A DNA stretch of 30,712 bases from a virus. Where the stretch lies: the IMG/VR virus record IMGVR_UViG_3300022707_002195, positions 1 through 30,712 of that record; one strand, given 5' to 3'. Each line of letters begins with the position of its first letter. The first letter of the stretch is position 1. Positions 1 to 30,660 of the stretch are shown here, one piece after another. The position numbers and the translations under genes are program-made. Below the pieces are notes generated by a model. The model saw nothing but the letters and a program-made list of their open reading frames with translations. It was not told where the DNA came from and searched no databases.

Positions 1-74
1 AATGTAATTTTTGCGCCCCAAGGCTCGCCGAATCTACGTGTGTTATATTCATCAAATTGATATTTAAAGTTCAT
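1..74 (-). CDS. Start of an unidentified gene, cut by the left edge
   Basis: An ATG at 74-72 opens a frame with no stop to the left edge, giving 24 residues that begin MNFKYQFDEYNTRRFGEPWG. An AAAAGGATC ribosome binding site lies about 6 bases upstream, and a sigma70-type promoter (123-150) lies about 50 bases further up, so this is a genuine gene start. The peptide is too short to assign a function. The motif RRFGEPWGAKI is a plausible start of a small phage protein but I do not recognise the family. Confidence 0.6.
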   Translation of the reverse strand, partial: MNFKYQFDEYNTRRFGEPWGAKIT

Positions 75-117
75 TTTCTTGATCCTTTTAAGTTTAGTTG
101 CTATTGCGTTGTTGTTA

Positions 118-150
118 AAGTAATTATAACAGGTAGCGCGCAACTGTAAA
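118..150 (-). promoter_or_regulatory. Sigma70-type promoter P1 with GCGCGC palindrome
   Basis: Read on the minus strand, a TTTACA -35 box (150-145) and a perfect TATAAT -10 box (128-123) are separated by 16 bases. The spacer contains GTTGCGCGCTAC (144-133), a 12-base palindrome with one mismatched pair, which could be an operator. It points at the gene starting at 74. The same arrangement recurs at 656-690. Promoter assignment is by match to consensus; repressor binding is inference. Confidence 0.75.
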
Positions 151-175
151 GTAAATAATCACAAAAGGGGTGAAT

Positions 176-619
176 TTATGTGAAAGTCTTTGCGTCTTTT
201 AGTATTTTACGCATTAGATCTCTCTCAATAGGATCGATCCGTGCGCTATCAGCATGATCTAGTTTCGTAAGCGTGTCCTCGCTCAATTTACGCACTTCAG
301 ACACCGCGTAGAGTACTACTTTGCGCACCCCGCTTATCAATGAGAGGCCTGAGGGTAGGTGGGTTAGTGTTTTCATTTTCTTGCCCGTAACGCTGTCGTG
401 ATATGCAAACATGCTATTTATTTTAGTCGCGATTACTGTTACTTTTTTGCCGTCGTGCTGTCGAACTAATTCCAGTTTTATTTTATCCTTTCCTTTGAGC
501 TTATGCCCCAGTCGATCAAGCTCAAACTTTTTGATAAGCTCACCTAATGCCGTGGCCAAGCCTTCCTCTCCACCTGAGAGTAAGCTTTTTACTTGTTGTA
601 ACTGCGTGTCTGTAATCAT
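176..619 (-). CDS. Hypothetical phage protein, 147 residues
   Basis: The ATG at 619 is chosen because an AAGG site lies 9 bases upstream; the in-frame GTG at 628 overlaps that site. The product is basic and lysine-rich, begins MITDTQLQQVKSLLSGG, and has a helical C-terminal half (SEVRKLSEDTLTKLDHADSARIDPIERDLMRKIL). No signal peptide, membrane segment or recognised catalytic motif is visible. It is a separate transcription unit: promoter P2 (661-688) lies directly upstream and P1 lies after its stop. This suggests early or regulated expression apart from the upstream genes. Function unknown. Confidence 0.75.
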   Translation of the reverse strand: MITDTQLQQVKSLLSGGEEGLATALGELIKKFELDRLGHKLKGKDKIKLELVRQHDGKKVTVIATKINSMFAYHDSVTGKKMKTLTHLPSGLSLISGVRKVVLYAVSEVRKLSEDTLTKLDHADSARIDPIERDLMRKILKDAKTFT

Positions 620-655
620 TATCGTCACCCTTATGTTTGCGTTTGCTTGATGTTG

Positions 656-690
656 TAGTAATTATAGCAGGTTGCGCGCTACTGTAAAGT
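656..690 (-). promoter_or_regulatory. Sigma70-type promoter P2, near copy of P1
   Basis: On the minus strand, TTTACA (688-683) and TATAAT (666-661) are separated by 16 bases, the same geometry as P1. The spacer carries GTAGCGCGCAAC (682-671), the exact reverse complement of the P1 spacer palindrome. Similarity to P1 extends for roughly 45-50 bases including the region upstream of the -35 box. It drives the gene starting at 619. Confidence 0.75.
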
Positions 691-710
691 AAATAATCAC
701 GAAATGGGAA

Positions 711-4325: not shown

Positions 4326-4556
4326 TTATCCTCCTTTGTTTTCCGAAAACGAAATCGTTACATCTTCTCCAAGGGCTAAACTTAAAGATTTTTCTAGATG
4401 TTCCCTTGCTGCCCGATTCAAATCTACAAGATCCTTTAAAAGTCCTTTCACAAGATAAGATAAAACATATACTTGTGGATTTGAGCAATCTACATAATCT
4501 AGTAGCTCCGGTACCATCATTTTGGCCATTTTTGCTTTTTCTAATTCTTCTATCAT
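4326..4556 (-). CDS. Small helical protein, tandem paralogue (copy 2), 76 residues
   Basis: ATG at 4556, AAGGA 7 bases upstream. The product begins MIEELEKAKMAKMMVPELLDYVDCSN and contains PQVYVLSYLVKGLLKDLVDL and LEKSLSLALGEDVTISF. It is very similar along its length to the upstream gene at 4567-4824, so the two are a tandem duplication. All-helical, no signal peptide, no known motif. Its stop is 2 bases before the SSB-like start. Function unknown. Confidence 0.75.
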   Translation of the reverse strand: MIEELEKAKMAKMMVPELLDYVDCSNPQVYVLSYLVKGLLKDLVDLNRAAREHLEKSLSLALGEDVTISFSENKGG

Positions 4557-4790
4557 TATATAATCCTTATTTATCGGGGAAACTAATCGTTACATCTTCT
4601 TCAAGGGCTAAACTTAAAGACTTTTCTAGCTGTTCCTTTGATGCCAGATACAACTTTTCAAGATCTTTTACTAGCCCTTTCACAAGATATGATAAAACAT
4701 ATACTTGTGGATTTGAGCAATCTACATAATCTAGTAGCTCAGGTATCTTCATTTTGGCCATTTTTGCTTTTTCTACTTCAGCTATTTTTG
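4339..4790. repeat. Tandem duplication of a ~232-bp unit
   Basis: The two genes at 4326-4556 and 4567-4824 match at DNA level with an offset of 232 bases. The longest identical stretch covers about 50 bases (around 4459-4508 and 4691-4740), spanning the codons for the DYVDCSNPQVYVLS region. The high identity indicates a recent duplication. Confidence 0.8.
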
Positions 4791-4824
4791 CTTTTTGTAA
4801 TTCAGACATTCCTTTTTCATCCAT
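4567..4824 (-). CDS. Small helical protein, tandem paralogue (copy 1), 85 residues
   Basis: ATG at 4824 with GGGG about 7 bases upstream. Compared with its neighbour it has an extended N-terminus, in which the AKIAEVEKAKMAKM segment looks like a small internal duplication of the (E)KAKMAKM unit. The shared core is PELLDYVDCSNPQVYVLSYL, followed by KGLVKDLEKL and LEKSLSLALEEDVTISF. The copies differ mainly in the region after KGL(V/L)KDL. No known family. Confidence 0.75.
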   Translation of the reverse strand: MDEKGMSELQKAKIAEVEKAKMAKMKIPELLDYVDCSNPQVYVLSYLVKGLVKDLEKLYLASKEQLEKSLSLALEEDVTISFPDK

Positions 4825-9245: not shown

Positions 9246-9268
9246 AAAATGACCCCCGTAAGGGGGTC
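9246..9268 (-). terminator. Rho-independent terminator-like hairpin (copy 1)
   Basis: Read on the minus strand, GACCCCCTTACGGGGGTC is a perfect 7-bp stem with a TTAC loop, followed by ATTTTT. It lies between the stop of the 163-residue gene and the helicase start. A second copy is at 9801-9823. As all genes run the same way, it probably attenuates rather than ends transcription. Confidence 0.75.
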
Positions 9269-9289
9269 AAGGGGGCGGTAATCGTTATC

Positions 9290-9800: not shown

Positions 9801-9823
9801 AAAATGACCCCCTTACGGGGGTC
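9801..9823 (-). terminator. Rho-independent terminator-like hairpin (copy 2)
   Basis: On the minus strand, GACCCCCGTAAGGGGGTC (7-bp stem, GTAA loop) followed by ATTTTTAAA. The flanking bases CCGTCCCCCTA are shared with the copy at 9246-9268 (CCGCCCCCTTG), so a unit of about 35 bases is duplicated. The loop sequence is the reverse complement of that in the other copy. Confidence 0.75.
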
Positions 9824-11698: not shown

Positions 11699-13465
11699 TT
11701 ACCGTTTTTTTGCTAAAGAATTTCTAACAAAATCAGCCATATTTTGTTTGTTATTTATTGCTGTCTTAATATCATTATCAATGGTATTTTCCGCTAAAAT
11801 ATCTATGTATAAAACCTTATTCGTTTGGCCAATTCTGTGGTTTCTATCCTCAGATTGTTTACGATGTACGTAATTAAAATTGTTACTCATATAAATTGAT
11901 AAGCTGGCAACATTTAAAGTTAATCCAACACCGCCCGTTGCTTGATTTGAAACAAAGAATCTTTTTTCTTTTGTCTTAAAAGCTTTTTCATTAATATCTC
12001 TACTCTCACTTGACACGCCGCCGTGATATTCCGCAACACATCCGATGCCATATTTAGTTTCCAAAGCCTCTACTATATTTGCAATTTCTTTTCTAAACCT
12101 GGACCAAATTATCACTGGCTTATCTTTATGCTCGTCTAATATTGCCAATAACTCTTTTATTTTAGGGTTTGTAACGCCCTTAACTATCTCAACTAACCTA
12201 CGTTCCTTTTGACCCTCCTGTGTATAAGTTACAAAACCGCTTACTATCTGTTGCAGTGCTAGATGCATCACTAGTATATTATCTGCTACAAGTTTTTCAT
12301 TCGACCCATCAGGATTTAGTACCGGTAAATCAGCCATTCGATCTTTTTTAATTTTTACATAAATATCTTTCTGCTCTTTCGTCAATTGCACTTTTCTCAA
12401 AGAGTATACTTTATCTGGTAAGTCTGGCAGGGCCTCTTTTTTAGTGCATTGAAACACCCAGGGCCTGATTAAATCCATCAGCTCTGGTATATTGTCATAC
12501 CCTGTAATCTGTTTTCCTTCAAAGCCACCCATCACTGCATAACGATTTCGAAAGCTATAATAATCACCAATGCCAATTATATCCGGGTTCAAAAACTCAA
12601 ACTGCATGTATAGGTCCATGATGGAGTTTGACACCTCTGTGCCAGTTGCTATCATGCGTTTCTTTGCTAGCAGCCCCAGGGACACTGCATTACGGGATCG
12701 GTTTTTATCATGATTTTTAATTTGATGCGCTTCGTCAATGACCATCATCGGGTTGTGACAGAGCATAAATTTCTCTACCAAATCCCAGGCTTTACCGGTG
12801 GGTCTTTTAGTTCTCTTGTCGATTCTTGATATCGATTCCGTGCCCACAATAAACACTTTTAACTTAGTTTGATCCCTGTGATAAATAAATTTATCTATCT
12901 CCCTTTCTTGTTTCTTAGTTTTTGGATTGCAAACTATAATGTCGTAATCTATCGGTGCATGTTCTTCAAATTGCTCAACCCAGTTAGATCTGATAGACAC
13001 CTGACACAGAATAACCAATGCATTGATAGTATGCGCTTTAAAATAGGCGCATGCAGTATCTATAATCACCTTTGATTTGCCGGTACCCATCTCCATATAC
13101 AACGCAAATTGGTCGAGGTCGTAAGCCTCGTGCAGTGCCGTCGTCTGGTGACTATACGGATCAGACCCAATCTTAAATTTGTAATCTTTTGGAAACCCCT
13201 GCTTGTTAACCATGCTAATATTGTTTTTTATGTTTAATATTACTTCAGCACATCCTGGCCCTAAGTTTATTACCCCTGCATCATTTAATTTAGTTATCTG
13301 CTCAGCATTACGAGATAGTGCCGGAGCTACCCATAGATCTTTCTTTTTGTAATATCTCCGATTTGGTAAACTCCGTACTGCAGTATTTAATTCAAACGAA
13401 ATTGGACATGCAAGATGGAATTTATTTGTTTTTGGTATGTAAGTTACTTCGATTTTAGAAGTCAT
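11699..13465 (-). CDS. SNF2-family superfamily 2 helicase/ATPase, 588 residues
   Basis: The ATG at 13465 overlaps the primase gene end by 11 bases, with GGAG upstream. Motifs: Walker A MEMGTGKS (about 124-131), motif II VIDEAHQIKNHDKNRS (DEAH about 244-247), motif III MIATGTEVSN, then C-terminal VIIWSRFRKEI, NQATGGVGLTLNVAS and motif VI SEDRNHRIGQTNKV. The DEAH box and QxxDRxHRIGQ signature place it in the SNF2/Rad54-like group. Many phages use such a protein as replicative or remodelling helicase beside a primase. The first ~100 residues look like an accessory domain (HARP-like features possible). Family certain, fork role inferred. Confidence 0.92.
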   Translation of the reverse strand: MTSKIEVTYIPKTNKFHLACPISFELNTAVRSLPNRRYYKKKDLWVAPALSRNAEQITKLNDAGVINLGPGCAEVILNIKNNISMVNKQGFPKDYKFKIGSDPYSHQTTALHEAYDLDQFALYMEMGTGKSKVIIDTACAYFKAHTINALVILCQVSIRSNWVEQFEEHAPIDYDIIVCNPKTKKQEREIDKFIYHRDQTKLKVFIVGTESISRIDKRTKRPTGKAWDLVEKFMLCHNPMMVIDEAHQIKNHDKNRSRNAVSLGLLAKKRMIATGTEVSNSIMDLYMQFEFLNPDIIGIGDYYSFRNRYAVMGGFEGKQITGYDNIPELMDLIRPWVFQCTKKEALPDLPDKVYSLRKVQLTKEQKDIYVKIKKDRMADLPVLNPDGSNEKLVADNILVMHLALQQIVSGFVTYTQEGQKERRLVEIVKGVTNPKIKELLAILDEHKDKPVIIWSRFRKEIANIVEALETKYGIGCVAEYHGGVSSESRDINEKAFKTKEKRFFVSNQATGGVGLTLNVASLSIYMSNNFNYVHRKQSEDRNHRIGQTNKVLYIDILAENTIDNDIKTAINNKQNMADFVRNSLAKKR

Positions 13466-15008
13466 TGGGTATCTCCACTTTGGGAATGTCAATATTATTA
13501 ACCTCTGTCAGTAACACATACCAAACCTCAATTGATTGTTTGTTATTTATGTATAACCTTGTATGTTGTACCCCAGTATTACGCATCACCACCCAAAGAT
13601 TTGCACCTTTGATATCTGAGCATTTACTCTTTTGCAAAAATTCAACAAAATCTTCACCGCGAAAATAAACCACCTTCCCGTTTATCTCGTCTTCTTTTCG
13701 ATACTGTACAACCGGAGCTCCCCGAGTCAGTGCCTCCCTGTCTTTTATCTGCAACCCATCTGTTTCTAGATCTGCTTTTTGTAAAAAAGTATTTAACTTA
13801 GCTCTCAGTATGCCAGATGTTGATGCAGTGTCTGGGGCCTCTATCACAGTTGCTGTATCCATCAGTGGGTAAAGTATTACTTGCCACTGTGTGTTCTTCA
13901 TAGGGGCCACCAACTTTGTCAACCGGTCTGCAATAGCTTCTCTAACTTTCCGATAATCTAATAGCTCAACTGAGGTTAGTGTGATATCCATTTCATCGAC
14001 TTCTAGTAACCACTTGACTGGGTCCGTTGTTATCTTTCTTAAGTTCCTAAATTTAGGGGGCTTACCCAGGGTCATCTCATTATTTTCATCCTCGGAGATT
14101 CCATATTTACGTGTCACGCAAACTTTGCTGTTACAGAGGCTCTTGCATGGTTCCTCGCTGCACTTGTATCTGTATGTCCTCCTAGCAACACTGTTGATAG
14201 TTTTTTCTGCTTCCGAATGTAAGATTGGAGAATCAAAAACCTTTGAATTTAAATCATATGCTTTGCCTTTCCAGGTTTCCGGAAACGCTTGTTTTACATA
14301 AACACTTAAATTAAACAATGCTATGTTTCTTTGGCCCTCTTGCACACCTTGGCTTATCATTTTTTGTATGCAAGGGGGTGCTCCGTTATGTTGAGTATCT
14401 GATTTCTCAACTAAAATTGACCCTGTCACTTTCCTAGATTCTGCGAGATCTAGGAAATAATCTAAGGGTATCTGCTTACCACCCTCTACTGAGTATCTTT
14501 TTGTGTTTTCAACATTAAAATAGCATAAATTTAACCAAGTGCCTCGTGACCTACTGCCATCCTCTTCGAGAACTAGTTGACCTTGCTTTGGGAAAATCTC
14601 ACACCCCCCATGACCAAGTAGCTCCGCCCATTTAGATAAGGCCGTACGGACTAAGGGTGCTTTTAATGGCTCCGCACCAAACAAATATAAATGAGCCCCT
14701 CCAGAATTAGTGCGACAAACAGACAGAGGTAAATCATTTTCCCGTACTTTCTTTTCTAGCGCCACCAAATCAATATCCGGCAAATCCCCATGCGCATCAA
14801 TATCAATAGCTCCAAAGTAACAAGTGCCATCGTCCATAATAGGCACAATTCCAACACCCATCTCACCACTCAAATGTTTTATAAACTCTTGTTCTCCCGG
14901 GACAATGTCGGATTTTGTAAACCTTCTGTCTGTTGGGGTACATTGTCCGTACGATCTCTCATTGCCCCTAAACAAAGACATAAATCTATTTGTTATTTCA
15001 TTACTCAT
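13455..15008 (-). CDS. Archaeo-eukaryotic-type primase (TOTE-like AEP domain), full length, 517 residues
   Basis: Synthesises primers for DNA replication. ATG at 15008 with GAGGTAGG upstream. N-terminal AEP domain: FRGNERSYG, catalytic D69-x-D71 in FGAIDIDAHGD, SGGAHLYLF (H106) and EIFPKQ (E137). Such D-x-D, S-x-x-x-H and E signatures, with the leading ‘LFRGNERSYG’, match the primase domain of TOTE-type systems. Residues ~205-300 contain a helical PriCT-like part and a zinc knuckle C283, C288, C292, C297. The last ~200 residues end in a winged-helix-like ‘LWVVMRNTGVQHTRLYI’ segment. A paralogue with only the first domain lies upstream. Followed by SNF2 helicase with overlapping codons. Confidence 0.88.
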   Translation of the reverse strand: MSNEITNRFMSLFRGNERSYGQCTPTDRRFTKSDIVPGEQEFIKHLSGEMGVGIVPIMDDGTCYFGAIDIDAHGDLPDIDLVALEKKVRENDLPLSVCRTNSGGAHLYLFGAEPLKAPLVRTALSKWAELLGHGGCEIFPKQGQLVLEEDGSRSRGTWLNLCYFNVENTKRYSVEGGKQIPLDYFLDLAESRKVTGSILVEKSDTQHNGAPPCIQKMISQGVQEGQRNIALFNLSVYVKQAFPETWKGKAYDLNSKVFDSPILHSEAEKTINSVARRTYRYKCSEEPCKSLCNSKVCVTRKYGISEDENNEMTLGKPPKFRNLRKITTDPVKWLLEVDEMDITLTSVELLDYRKVREAIADRLTKLVAPMKNTQWQVILYPLMDTATVIEAPDTASTSGILRAKLNTFLQKADLETDGLQIKDREALTRGAPVVQYRKEDEINGKVVYFRGEDFVEFLQKSKCSDIKGANLWVVMRNTGVQHTRLYINNKQSIEVWYVLLTEVNNIDIPKVEIPNDF

Positions 15009-15725
15009 GTACCTACCTCAAATCAAAATATCTCTAAACTCTGGTGTTAACTTTACATCTGTTTTTTAACCAGCGCTCCCCCTGTTATCTTTCTAGATTC
15101 CGCCAGATCAACAAAATAATCTAAGGGTATCTGCTTACCACCCTCTACTGAGTACCGTTTTGTTTTCTCGGTATCGAAATAGCACAAGTTTATCCAATTT
15201 CCAAATGCCCTAGTACCATCGTTACTAGTAAATAACGTACGTTGCGTTGGGAAAATCTCGCAGCCGCCGTACCCAAGTACCTGAGCCCACTTAGATAATG
15301 CTGTACGGACTAGCGATGCTTTCAGTGGTTCAGCACAAAATAAATATAAGTGAGCACCTCCGGATTTAGATCGACAAACAGATAGCGGTAAATCATTTTC
15401 TCTTACCCGTTTTTCTAAATCTGATAAATCAATGTCGGGTAAATCCCCGTGAGCATCAATATCGATAGCGCCAAAATAACACATGTCATCATCCATCACC
15501 GGCACGACACCAATACCTTGTTTGCCAGTCAGGTGTAATTCAAAATCGGATACTGTTGGTACCTGGTCCTTTACAGTTTCCATTTTATTATTAAGGTAAT
15601 ATCTACCGTATGATCTCTCATTGCCCCGAAACAAAGACATAAATCTTTTTGTTATCTCACTCATGCACCTACCTCAAATCAAAATATCTCTAAACTCTGG
15701 GGTTAACTCTACATCCGTTTTTTAA
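15006..15725. repeat. Tandem duplication, period ~656 bp (64-bp leaders at both ends)
   Basis: Bases 15006-15069 and 15662-15725 are direct repeats with 60 of 64 identical positions. Each holds the GAGGTAGG ribosome binding site and the ATG of a primase gene. The unit between them is the truncated primase copy. The leader is more conserved than the coding parts, which suggests that this sequence is functional or was recently exchanged. Confidence 0.85.
15053..15664 (-). CDS. Truncated primase paralogue: AEP domain only, 203 residues
   Basis: Second copy of the primase catalytic domain. ATG at 15664, GAGGTAGG upstream. It matches the first ~200 residues of the downstream primase at roughly 70% identity and keeps the catalytic D68-x-D70, H105 and E136; the FPKQ lysine is Thr. 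It ends at KKQM, where the sequence runs directly into a copy of the shared leader. The zinc knuckle, PriCT-like and winged-helix parts are absent. Intact frame, own ribosome binding site and retained catalytic residues argue against a dead remnant; it may be a separate polymerase/primase or regulator of the full-length protein. Confidence 0.85.
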   Translation of the reverse strand: MSEITKRFMSLFRGNERSYGRYYLNNKMETVKDQVPTVSDFELHLTGKQGIGVVPVMDDDMCYFGAIDIDAHGDLPDIDLSDLEKRVRENDLPLSVCRSKSGGAHLYLFCAEPLKASLVRTALSKWAQVLGYGGCEIFPTQRTLFTSNDGTRAFGNWINLCYFDTEKTKRYSVEGGKQIPLDYFVDLAESRKITGGALVKKQM

Positions 15726-28800: not shown

Positions 28801-29094
28801 TTATACTCCGTTGATTGTTAAAACTCTTGGTTGCTTTCGCCAATTTCTAGGTCTTTTGGAAAGAACTGAAAAATTACCTCTGATTCGACCCATAACAAAT
28901 TGCCCCGTTTTTCCCAATCTAGTTTTCGGTTTTGTGAAACCCCATTTGATTTCCCCATTTGATTTTTCTTTTGGTACAACAAAGGCTCTCATTTCATATC
29001 CATTGGGTAATTTGATTGGACACCCGTATGCATTATTTACTTCTTCTATTGCAGCTAAATAATCTTCTTCTGAATCAAAAATTAAAAAAGTCAT
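28801..29094 (-). CDS. Small protein of the GCPI/WGF pair (copy 1), 97 residues
   Basis: ATG at 29094 overlaps the upstream stop (ATGA). Product MTFLIFDSEEDYLAAIEEVN, then YGCPIKLPNGYEMRAFVVPK and IKWGFTKPKTRLGKTGQF, with a basic C-terminus. Paralogue of the gene at 28529-28798, though more diverged than the lectin-like pair. Function unknown. Confidence 0.75.
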   Translation of the reverse strand: MTFLIFDSEEDYLAAIEEVNNAYGCPIKLPNGYEMRAFVVPKEKSNGEIKWGFTKPKTRLGKTGQFVMGRIRGNFSVLSKRPRNWRKQPRVLTINGV

Positions 29095-29876
29095 ATTGAA
29101 TACTTCGCTAGTAAATGTTGTTCCAATTCTATGCGTTCGGAATCAAACCAAGTTCTATTTGATACAACAAGTTCCGAAATGCTGCCACCATAAAGTCTTT
29201 CCGTGCCATTTGTCTGTGCGCCAATTTCATAGGTTTCGGAGGAAGTAGTTAAGCTTGTGGGACTCCCAATAGTTAGACCCCCTACAAATATAGCAATCAC
29301 ACCATTCATATAAATTGATATGTCGGTGGGTACTAAAGTAGGACTTGGGTCAAACACAACAGTTATCAAAACAGGTGTATTGACAGATAATAATAAAAAA
29401 GCAACTTTAGCGATAAAATCATTTTGAGATGATCCCGCCGTGACGATAATGCCGTCTCCACTTTGATAAAATTGAATTCTGCTTCCAGCTCCATCTTCCC
29501 AAACAGAAAATAATATAAACTCCCCCACCACAACATTGGGTTCAAAAACACAGGCTATTGAAAATCTCCCCGTTGATAGATCTAAAATACCCCCTTTCAA
29601 ATAATGATCTACGCCATCAAAATCAATTGCAGGCTGGTCATTGATTGTTTCTGTATTTGCTAACGGTTGATCCAATCCAACAGTTTGTAATGCATCATTT
29701 CGATTCAGACTTTTATCTTTCCAATTTGACACATCGTTACTTGATTCTACAACTGATCCTTTATCAGTTGCATCTACCCAAATTTGAGTACCTAAAATGT
29801 CTATTGGTTCAAAAATAGGGATTACTGATTGAATGGGGGCTTTAATTAAATTACTTACCATTTTTTTAATTAACAT
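29091..29876 (-). CDS. Concanavalin/LamG-like surface protein (copy), 261 residues
   Basis: Starts MLIKKMVSNLIKAPIQSVIP, then QIWVDATDKGSVVESSNDVS, NWKDKSLNRNDALQTV, DQPAIDFDGVDHYLKGGILD and a C-terminal GGSISELVVSNRTWFDSERI. The ‘W-x-DA-x-D…W-x-D-x-S-x-x-x-x-x-A…FDG-x-x-x-x-L’ pattern with a C-terminal ‘I-x-E-x-x-V-x-x-R’ strand is that of LamG/concanavalin A-like domains on phage tails and capsids. It binds glycans in many such proteins; here only the fold is inferred. Paralogue of the next gene upstream. Confidence 0.75.
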   Translation of the reverse strand: MLIKKMVSNLIKAPIQSVIPIFEPIDILGTQIWVDATDKGSVVESSNDVSNWKDKSLNRNDALQTVGLDQPLANTETINDQPAIDFDGVDHYLKGGILDLSTGRFSIACVFEPNVVVGEFILFSVWEDGAGSRIQFYQSGDGIIVTAGSSQNDFIAKVAFLLLSVNTPVLITVVFDPSPTLVPTDISIYMNGVIAIFVGGLTIGSPTSLTTSSETYEIGAQTNGTERLYGGSISELVVSNRTWFDSERIELEQHLLAKYSI

Positions 29877-29883
29877 AGCCTTT

Positions 29884-30660
29884 TCACATCCCTACTAAAG
29901 GTATTGCCCATTTATCCGAAAGGTTATTATGTACAGAACTCAATTCATCAGTGTTTAAAGATCTGTCATAGACAAGGACTTCCATAATTTCACCATTATA
30001 AAAAGTCTTCGGTACACTTAAGTTAAATCGGGCCCCAATAAAAAAATTTAATACGTCAAAATTTCCGGTACTCGCTACAGAGGTACCTGGGAAACCATCT
30101 ATAAAAATTGTATGGAACGACCCGTCAAACATTCCGGTCGAGATATAAGGGTCATTGAGCGCAGGTAAAGGTAATTGAGATAAAGTAGCATTTCGAAAAG
30201 TCCTTAAAGTACCACTTAAATGATAAAAGCAAATACAAGACCCAATATTATCAGAATCTTTTGTGGCCCCGTCTGCAACTGCACTCAAAGTTGTTGTTGT
30301 GTTTACATTCACACTGCGACGAGTAACAACAAAATAAGTACACTGTGTACCTGTAAGTTTTGTTAACAAAGTACTTTGTAAAAAGTCATTTACGCCATCA
30401 TAAGCAAACGTATTTAAACCATTTTGTGTAGTAGTCCCTGTCAATGGCTGATCGGATCCAATTGCTTGCACAGCGTGGTTTCCCAGGCCACTTTTATCAT
30501 CTAGTTGAGACACAAAACCACTAACCTCTGTAATTGTGTCCTCATCGGCAGTGTCTAGCCAGAGTATATTATTAGCTATATTTGTTGCATCAAAAGCACC
30601 TGTAATTAGGGGCCTAATCAAATCTCTCGTTACACTACTAATTAATTTTTTGACTAACAC
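29884..30660 (-). CDS. Concanavalin/LamG-like surface protein (copy), 258 residues
   Basis: GTG start at 30660 with AAAGG 7-8 bases upstream. Product begins MLVKKLISSVTRDLIRPLIT, then ILWLDTADEDTITEVSGFVS, LDDKSGLGNHAVQAIGSDQP, FAYDGVNDFLQSTLL and a C-terminal FYNGEIMEVLVYDRSLNTDE. It is a clear paralogue of the 29091-29876 gene: same N-terminal (V/I)KK leader, W-x-DA/TA-D, DKS-x-x-x-N, SDQPL and the C-terminal SELVVSNR/MEVLVYDR strand. Likely tail or virion decoration. Confidence 0.78.
   Translation of the reverse strand: MLVKKLISSVTRDLIRPLITGAFDATNIANNILWLDTADEDTITEVSGFVSQLDDKSGLGNHAVQAIGSDQPLTGTTTQNGLNTFAYDGVNDFLQSTLLTKLTGTQCTYFVVTRRSVNVNTTTTLSAVADGATKDSDNIGSCICFYHLSGTLRTFRNATLSQLPLPALNDPYISTGMFDGSFHTIFIDGFPGTSVASTGNFDVLNFFIGARFNLSVPKTFYNGEIMEVLVYDRSLNTDELSSVHNNLSDKWAIPLVGM

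Follow-up and report, generated by a model that had tools for sequence, protein, structure and literature searches.

We have found two promoters of the sigma70 type at one end of a viral genome fragment, each carrying a palindromic candidate operator within its spacer. The same palindrome occupies the same promoter position in other phages, and in three of them the promoter leads into a tightly coupled gene pair, orfA-orfB. On balance, we judge it probable that each of the two sites is a strong early promoter whose spacer contains a repressor operator, and that they represent a class of autorepressed early operons using OrfB. The sequences thereby suggest that early phage genes are governed by a self-limiting switch that had escaped notice.

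Results

The DNA analyzed here (the window) is a complete record, a linear viral fragment of 30,712 bases. Its genes with family matches lie on the minus strand and include a contractile-tail sheath and a replication module; the DNA polymerase is nearest to those of Acinetobacter phages (52-53% identical). The window has the look of a mosaic, in which contractile-tail genes with remote relatives in Bordetella and Vibrio (25-30% identity for the sheath) are joined to an Acinetobacter-phage-like replication module. Use of the tail sheath as a route to relatives yielded one contig of 4,500 bases (L058) that was uninformative on the promoter. The twin promoters lie at the left end of the window, which is downstream in transcription order.

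Other repeats were observed elsewhere in the window. A tandem partial gene duplication at 13455-15664 comprises a second, shorter copy of the primase N-terminus (203 aa) upstream of the complete primase gene; the copies are 75-93% identical in nucleotide sequence and spaced about 659 bases apart. A 227-nt repeat with 86% identity makes two small adjoining genes at 4326-4824 look like a tandem duplication. On either side of a 163-aa ORF lie terminator-like hairpins (GACCCCC; 9251-9269 and 9805-9823), each with a T-run behind it, which are mutually 100% complementary. Neighboring ORFs of 261 and 258 aa at 29091-30660 have similar N-termini (MLIKK and MLVKK) and, judged by eye, are possibly paralogous.

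Table 1. Promoters, candidate operators and genes at the left end of the window
Feature	Position	Strand	Details
Promoter 1	661..688	-	-35 TTTACA (688-683), spacer 16, -10 TATAAT (666-661)
Promoter 2	123..150	-	-35 TTTACA (150-145), spacer 16, -10 TATAAT (128-123)
Candidate operator 1	671..682		GTTGCGCGCTAC on + strand; imperfect palindrome directly after -35
Candidate operator 2	133..144		GTAGCGCGCAAC on + strand; reverse complement of operator 1
Conserved 62-nt promoter block, copy 1	647..708	-	includes upstream GTGATTATTTAC
Conserved 62-nt promoter block, copy 2	109..170	-	
Gene under promoter 1	176..628	-	unknown family; mechanical ORF from GTG 628, 150 aa
Gene under promoter 2, start	1..74	-	ATG 74, 24 codons, cut by record end

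The original prediction described a pair of direct repeats that each form TTTACA-16-TATAAT on the minus strand, with a spacer palindrome in opposite orientations and conservation reaching beyond the boxes, and each of these points was borne out (Table 1). The repeats are 87% identical and 538 bases apart from start to start, and both copies match the two boxes with no mismatch. With 11 of 12 consensus matches and a spacer of 16 in each copy, they have the near-consensus boxes and the spacing (16-18) by which sigma70 promoters were defined, and promoter 1 also has TGC ahead of its -10 box (extended -10). Transcription would be expected to start near 654 from promoter 1 and near 116 from promoter 2. 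Both spacers open with GT(A/T)GCGCGC(T/A)AC directly after the -35 box, and the two 12-mers are exact reverse complements of each other. Identity between the copies takes in GTGATTATTTAC upstream of the -35 box, the two boxes with the spacer between them and a few bases beyond the -10 box, and is at background level in the genes; because it extends from GTGATTATTTAC, the conserved upstream block is slightly longer than had been noted earlier.

In simulations of the window (first-order Markov, 300 runs), exact TTTACA-16-TATAAT occurred 0.013 times per simulated window and GTWGCGCGCWAC 0.003 times, versus two copies seen of each; the window copies may stem from one duplication and would then not be independent events, so that the stronger test of chance lies in other phages with the palindrome arms left free. 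When up to two mismatches were allowed in the boxes, the window held 10 sites, which is not above chance (mean 9.28), and only the two exact sites stand out. Further copies had been anticipated in the rest of the record, and these did not materialize: no third copy of the full motif was found in all 30,712 bases. A lack of further copies and of conservation in relatives had been named as grounds for abandoning the prediction; such copies are indeed absent from the record, but the same palindrome in the same position does occur in other phages.

Promoter 1 faces a gene for which an ATG at 619 behind AAGGG is, from its sequence, the more likely start. The proposal that two genes are placed under the same control fits the ATG codons at 619 and 74, with both promoters standing as candidates. 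No homologue of the 150-aa ORF was found in viral contigs, phage records, Pfam, PHROGs or NCBIfam, and the 24 aa of the promoter-2 gene had no match. The single-sequence fold of the 150-aa ORF was poor (mean pLDDT 43.5), and the product of the promoter-1 gene, with a pI of 9.67, is basic where the orfA proteins described below are acidic.

To look beyond the window, 2.9 million viral contigs of IMG/VR were scanned with the pattern TTKACA-N3-GCGCGC-N7-TATAAT, which leaves the palindrome arms free. Two contigs were recovered, L004 and L009, and both carry the complete palindrome GTTGCGCGCAAC (arms GTT and AAC) at the same position; the 16-base spacer of L009 differs from that of the window copy at 150-123 in one position. 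Applied to 84,980 bacterial and archaeal species, the pattern yielded 47 loci, none of which (0/47) had GTN/NAC arms. As a separate observation, two promoter-like sites that are nearly identical and contain GCGCGC in their spacers occur in the marine gammaproteobacterium HTCC2143 (L051 115-142 and L055 5608-5635); these are without the GTT/AAC arms and perhaps come from a duplicated operon.

Among the viral contigs, GTTGCGCGCAAC followed after two to seven bases by TATAAT was found in L004 and L009 only, both times at four bases. TTGACA followed after zero to four bases by GTTGCGCGCAAC gave four matches, and the three without a gap (L009, L064 and L066) are promoter-like, with a -10 box of TACGAT in L064 and of GATGAT, at spacing 17, in L066. 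The match with a gap, L065, was set aside since it reads by eye as coding. An initial scan, for the palindrome together with the TTTACA box, had given six loci, of which L004 alone is promoter-like; the sites in L003, L005, L006 and L007 were rejected because they are covered by ORFs of at least 163 aa, and L008 because a -10 box is missing and the site falls at the end of its stretch. L064 may be a chance match, since matches of this length occur in so large a collection and it has no other support. Blastn of the promoter against named phages and plasmids gave only short off-centre or weak pieces, and no match of the palindrome core that covered the promoter. In the literature, GTTGCGCGCAAC was not found among the matches listed for forms of the palindrome, and no listed title concerned a regulator of the site. 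Because the same palindrome stands at the same promoter position in other phages, its recurrence by chance is, on sequence grounds, very unlikely.

An all-against-all comparison of ORFs of at least 40 aa took in the window and L004, the contigs of L009 and L066, and 38,955 bases from that of L064. These five phages have few families in common. The window and L004 share a helicase, and the L009 and L066 contigs share two other families; of the protein families found, orfB alone occurs in three of the five (L004, L009 and L066). The palindrome promoter leads into a tightly coupled orfA-orfB pair in three of the four other phages, with orfB as the second gene each time. In L004 the TAA stop of orfA is followed at once by ATG, in L066 the two genes overlap in TAATG, and in L009 the orfB start lies within the end of orfA. 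A later IMG/VR scan with the orfB alignment gave three relatives among 19 pattern matches, and these were exactly the L004, L009 and L066 contigs; because the scan needs short conserved peptides from the same three contigs, it misses remoter relatives. OrfB has three members here, of 52-55 aa, the other two being 46 and 56% identical to the first, and despite this divergence the 12-bp site is identical in all three phages. OrfB is basic (pI 10.1), and the three orfA products are small and acidic (pI 4.05-4.54). The orfA proteins did not match one another across phages at E 1e-3, and neither Pfam nor NCBIfam suggested a function for them; no PHROG match was significant. No orfB was found in the window fragment or in L064, whose whole contig was scanned, including the remaining 18,000 bases; directly behind the L064 promoter there is only a 34-aa ORF. 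Tblastn of OrfB against phages and plasmids returned nothing at E up to 1, and none of 369 genomes of one class had a match at E 1e-4.

The AlphaFold model of OrfB, built on three sequences (mean pLDDT 79.1, pTM 0.43), comprises a helix (5-18), two strands (21-24 and 27-30) and a second helix (31-47). OrfB had no Pfam or NCBIfam match and matched no helix-turn-helix (HTH) model, and comparison with the PDB by sequence or fold gave no credible match (0/51 chains with Z of at least 2). When predicted viral structures were searched, the top match was a 56-aa protein without a name (E 0.019, probability 1.00). Sub-threshold PHROG matches include two annotated as transcriptional regulator (phrog_11187, E 0.037; phrog_536, E 0.056), the others being a tail protein and unknowns. 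Distant relatives were found in 6/398 genomes of one phylum at a cut-off of E 0.01 (E 1.1e-4 to 0.0087), all six matching within OrfB positions 2-32. They share a basic helix and a KEMRGYLSPEA-type strand and run about 45 residues further, in what looks by eye like the two helices of a ribbon-helix-helix protein; the GTTGCGCGCAAC palindrome was found upstream of none of the six. The two that were scanned against families had weak UrfF matches (E 0.0012 and 0.017), and one also matched RepB-RCR_reg (E 0.085), all below curated cut-offs and among other weak matches; for one of the two, solved structures were searched, with no match. Together, the PHROG, relative and plasmid-family matches, none of which is a membership result, point to OrfB as a small DNA-binding protein. 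Our reading of the model is that OrfB is a candidate repressor, non-HTH and ribbon-helix-like; it has a single C-terminal helix, where a ribbon-helix-helix protein would have a strand followed by two.

Discussion

We infer promoter activity, OrfB binding, repression and a role for orfA from the arrangement described above, in the following way. Host RNA polymerase would fire the twin promoters at once on phage entry. OrfB, encoded by the phage, would be made from an operon of the same promoter class, and an OrfB dimer would bind the palindrome GTTGCGCGCAAC, cover the -35/-10 region and shut the early genes off. The orfA gene and the two window genes would then be early host-takeover or anti-defense genes, as in acr-aca operons. 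Counting against this reading, the window operators are imperfect palindromes, the promoter-1 gene product is basic, no orfB is present in the window and none is present in L064. The small number of orfB members also weighs against it, as do the lack of a family match or credible solved-structure match for OrfB and its single C-terminal helix. Since the second window gene is cut at the contig end and no orfB is visible, the regulator of the window is one that we infer, and the phage would be expected to carry orfB beyond the left end (position 1). The repressor that had been predicted to bind the palindrome thus gains from the recurrence of the site and from the small candidate regulator gene beside it in three phages, and loses from the absence of that gene in the window. 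The early regulon predicted at the same time has its two promoters in the window, but in this fragment it has no others.

A different reader of the palindrome would be a host transcription factor, whose operator was adopted by phages of related hosts, so that the state of the host sets early expression and orfB is a passenger. This would suit a site common to otherwise largely unrelated phages, and it would suit L064 and the window, which carry the promoter without a visible orfB; because L064 does so, its site could be read by a host factor or by a different phage factor, if it is not a chance match. However, the site with consensus boxes is absent from the 84,980 species (0/47 pattern matches with the arms) and the whole promoter, at up to three mismatches, from 369 genomes of one class, searches that covered those forms and leave room for host operators with weaker boxes. 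The site is also present in all three orfB contigs, and we regard a host regulator as unlikely. It is also conceivable that the spacer itself matters and no protein is involved, its GC-rich 16 bp setting the melting, supercoiling or methylation sensitivity of a strong promoter. GCGCGC is rigid and alternating and contains GCGC/CGCG methylation motifs, and these properties and the short spacer agree with such a role. Spacer mechanics do not require, however, that the GTT/AAC arms be kept as exactly as the core and symmetrically, and the arms are unrelated in the 47 bacterial promoters that also have GCGCGC at this position, which leaves this explanation very improbable.

The small coupled operon, with one acidic and one basic product and a palindrome in its promoter, also resembles a toxin-antitoxin-like pair, for which the palindrome would be the usual autoregulatory operator. 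A toxin and its antitoxin normally change together, whereas the orfA proteins are mutually unrelated while orfB is conserved, and no toxin family was matched; we consider such a pair highly improbable. Finally, the matches in other phages could be chance, with one of the window promoters a recent duplicate of the other. The two window copies can indeed be a duplication, some single matches (L003, L005-L008 and L065) are chance or coding, and L064 could be chance. Both free-arm IMG/VR matches, however, have all six arm bases right, at roughly 4^-6 each with equal base use, and orfB is linked to the site in three phages, so that this combination is extremely improbable. We retain the autorepressed early operon as the preferred reading.

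A bolder form of that reading, which we regard as doubtful, is that OrfB founds a new class of non-HTH, Aca-like autorepressors reading GTTGCGCGCAAC within the promoter spacer, that the palindrome is a DNA tag for anti-defense genes, and that the orfA genes and both window genes encode inhibitors of bacterial immunity that are new. If the operon reading is right, the 28-base promoter signature and the 55-aa marker protein could be used to fish unknown early phage genes from metagenomes as anti-defense candidates, much as aca genes served to find anti-CRISPRs, and it would follow that acr-aca-like operons can have regulators other than HTH proteins.

Plasmid copy-control repressors (RSF1010 protein F, or UrfF, and IncFII CopB, or RepB-RCR_reg) are small and act at promoter palindromes. 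Two distant bacterial relatives of OrfB weakly match UrfF and one matches RepB-RCR_reg, but OrfB itself has no such match, is shorter, is without a second C-terminal helix and occurs in a phage rather than a plasmid context. In acr-aca operons, as described in the relevant part of PMC9410906, consensus promoters with an inverted repeat in the core promoter give an early burst that is then shut off. At the sites reported here, too, an inverted repeat lies within the -35/-10 core of a strong sigma70-like promoter, in a phage or mobile-element context. The gene layout, with variable small genes first and a conserved small candidate DNA-binding gene behind, is seen in L004, L009 and L066 and can be made out in neither the window nor L064. 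The 12 accepted Aca families (Aca1-Aca12), in the account given by PMC9765179, are all HTH, whereas the OrfB model is a helix, a strand pair and a helix, and the operators printed for Aca1, Aca2 and Aca10 in PMC9410881 differ from GTTGCGCGCAAC. With a non-HTH OrfB and operators unlike the published ones, the orfA-orfB system is therefore acr-aca-like in layout and not a member. In archaeal rudiviruses, according to the section of PMC11065993 that deals with them, one conserved early regulatory sequence, that of the Aca8 anti-defense regulon, marks unrelated anti-defense genes and has served to find them. The likeness lies in a single conserved promoter-plus-regulatory block ahead of unrelated small early genes; the rudivirus promoters differ in being archaeal (TATA/BRE), and Aca8 is predicted there to be a winged HTH protein. 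Taken as an analogy, the rudivirus block is the closest conceptual parallel to the twin promoters of the window.
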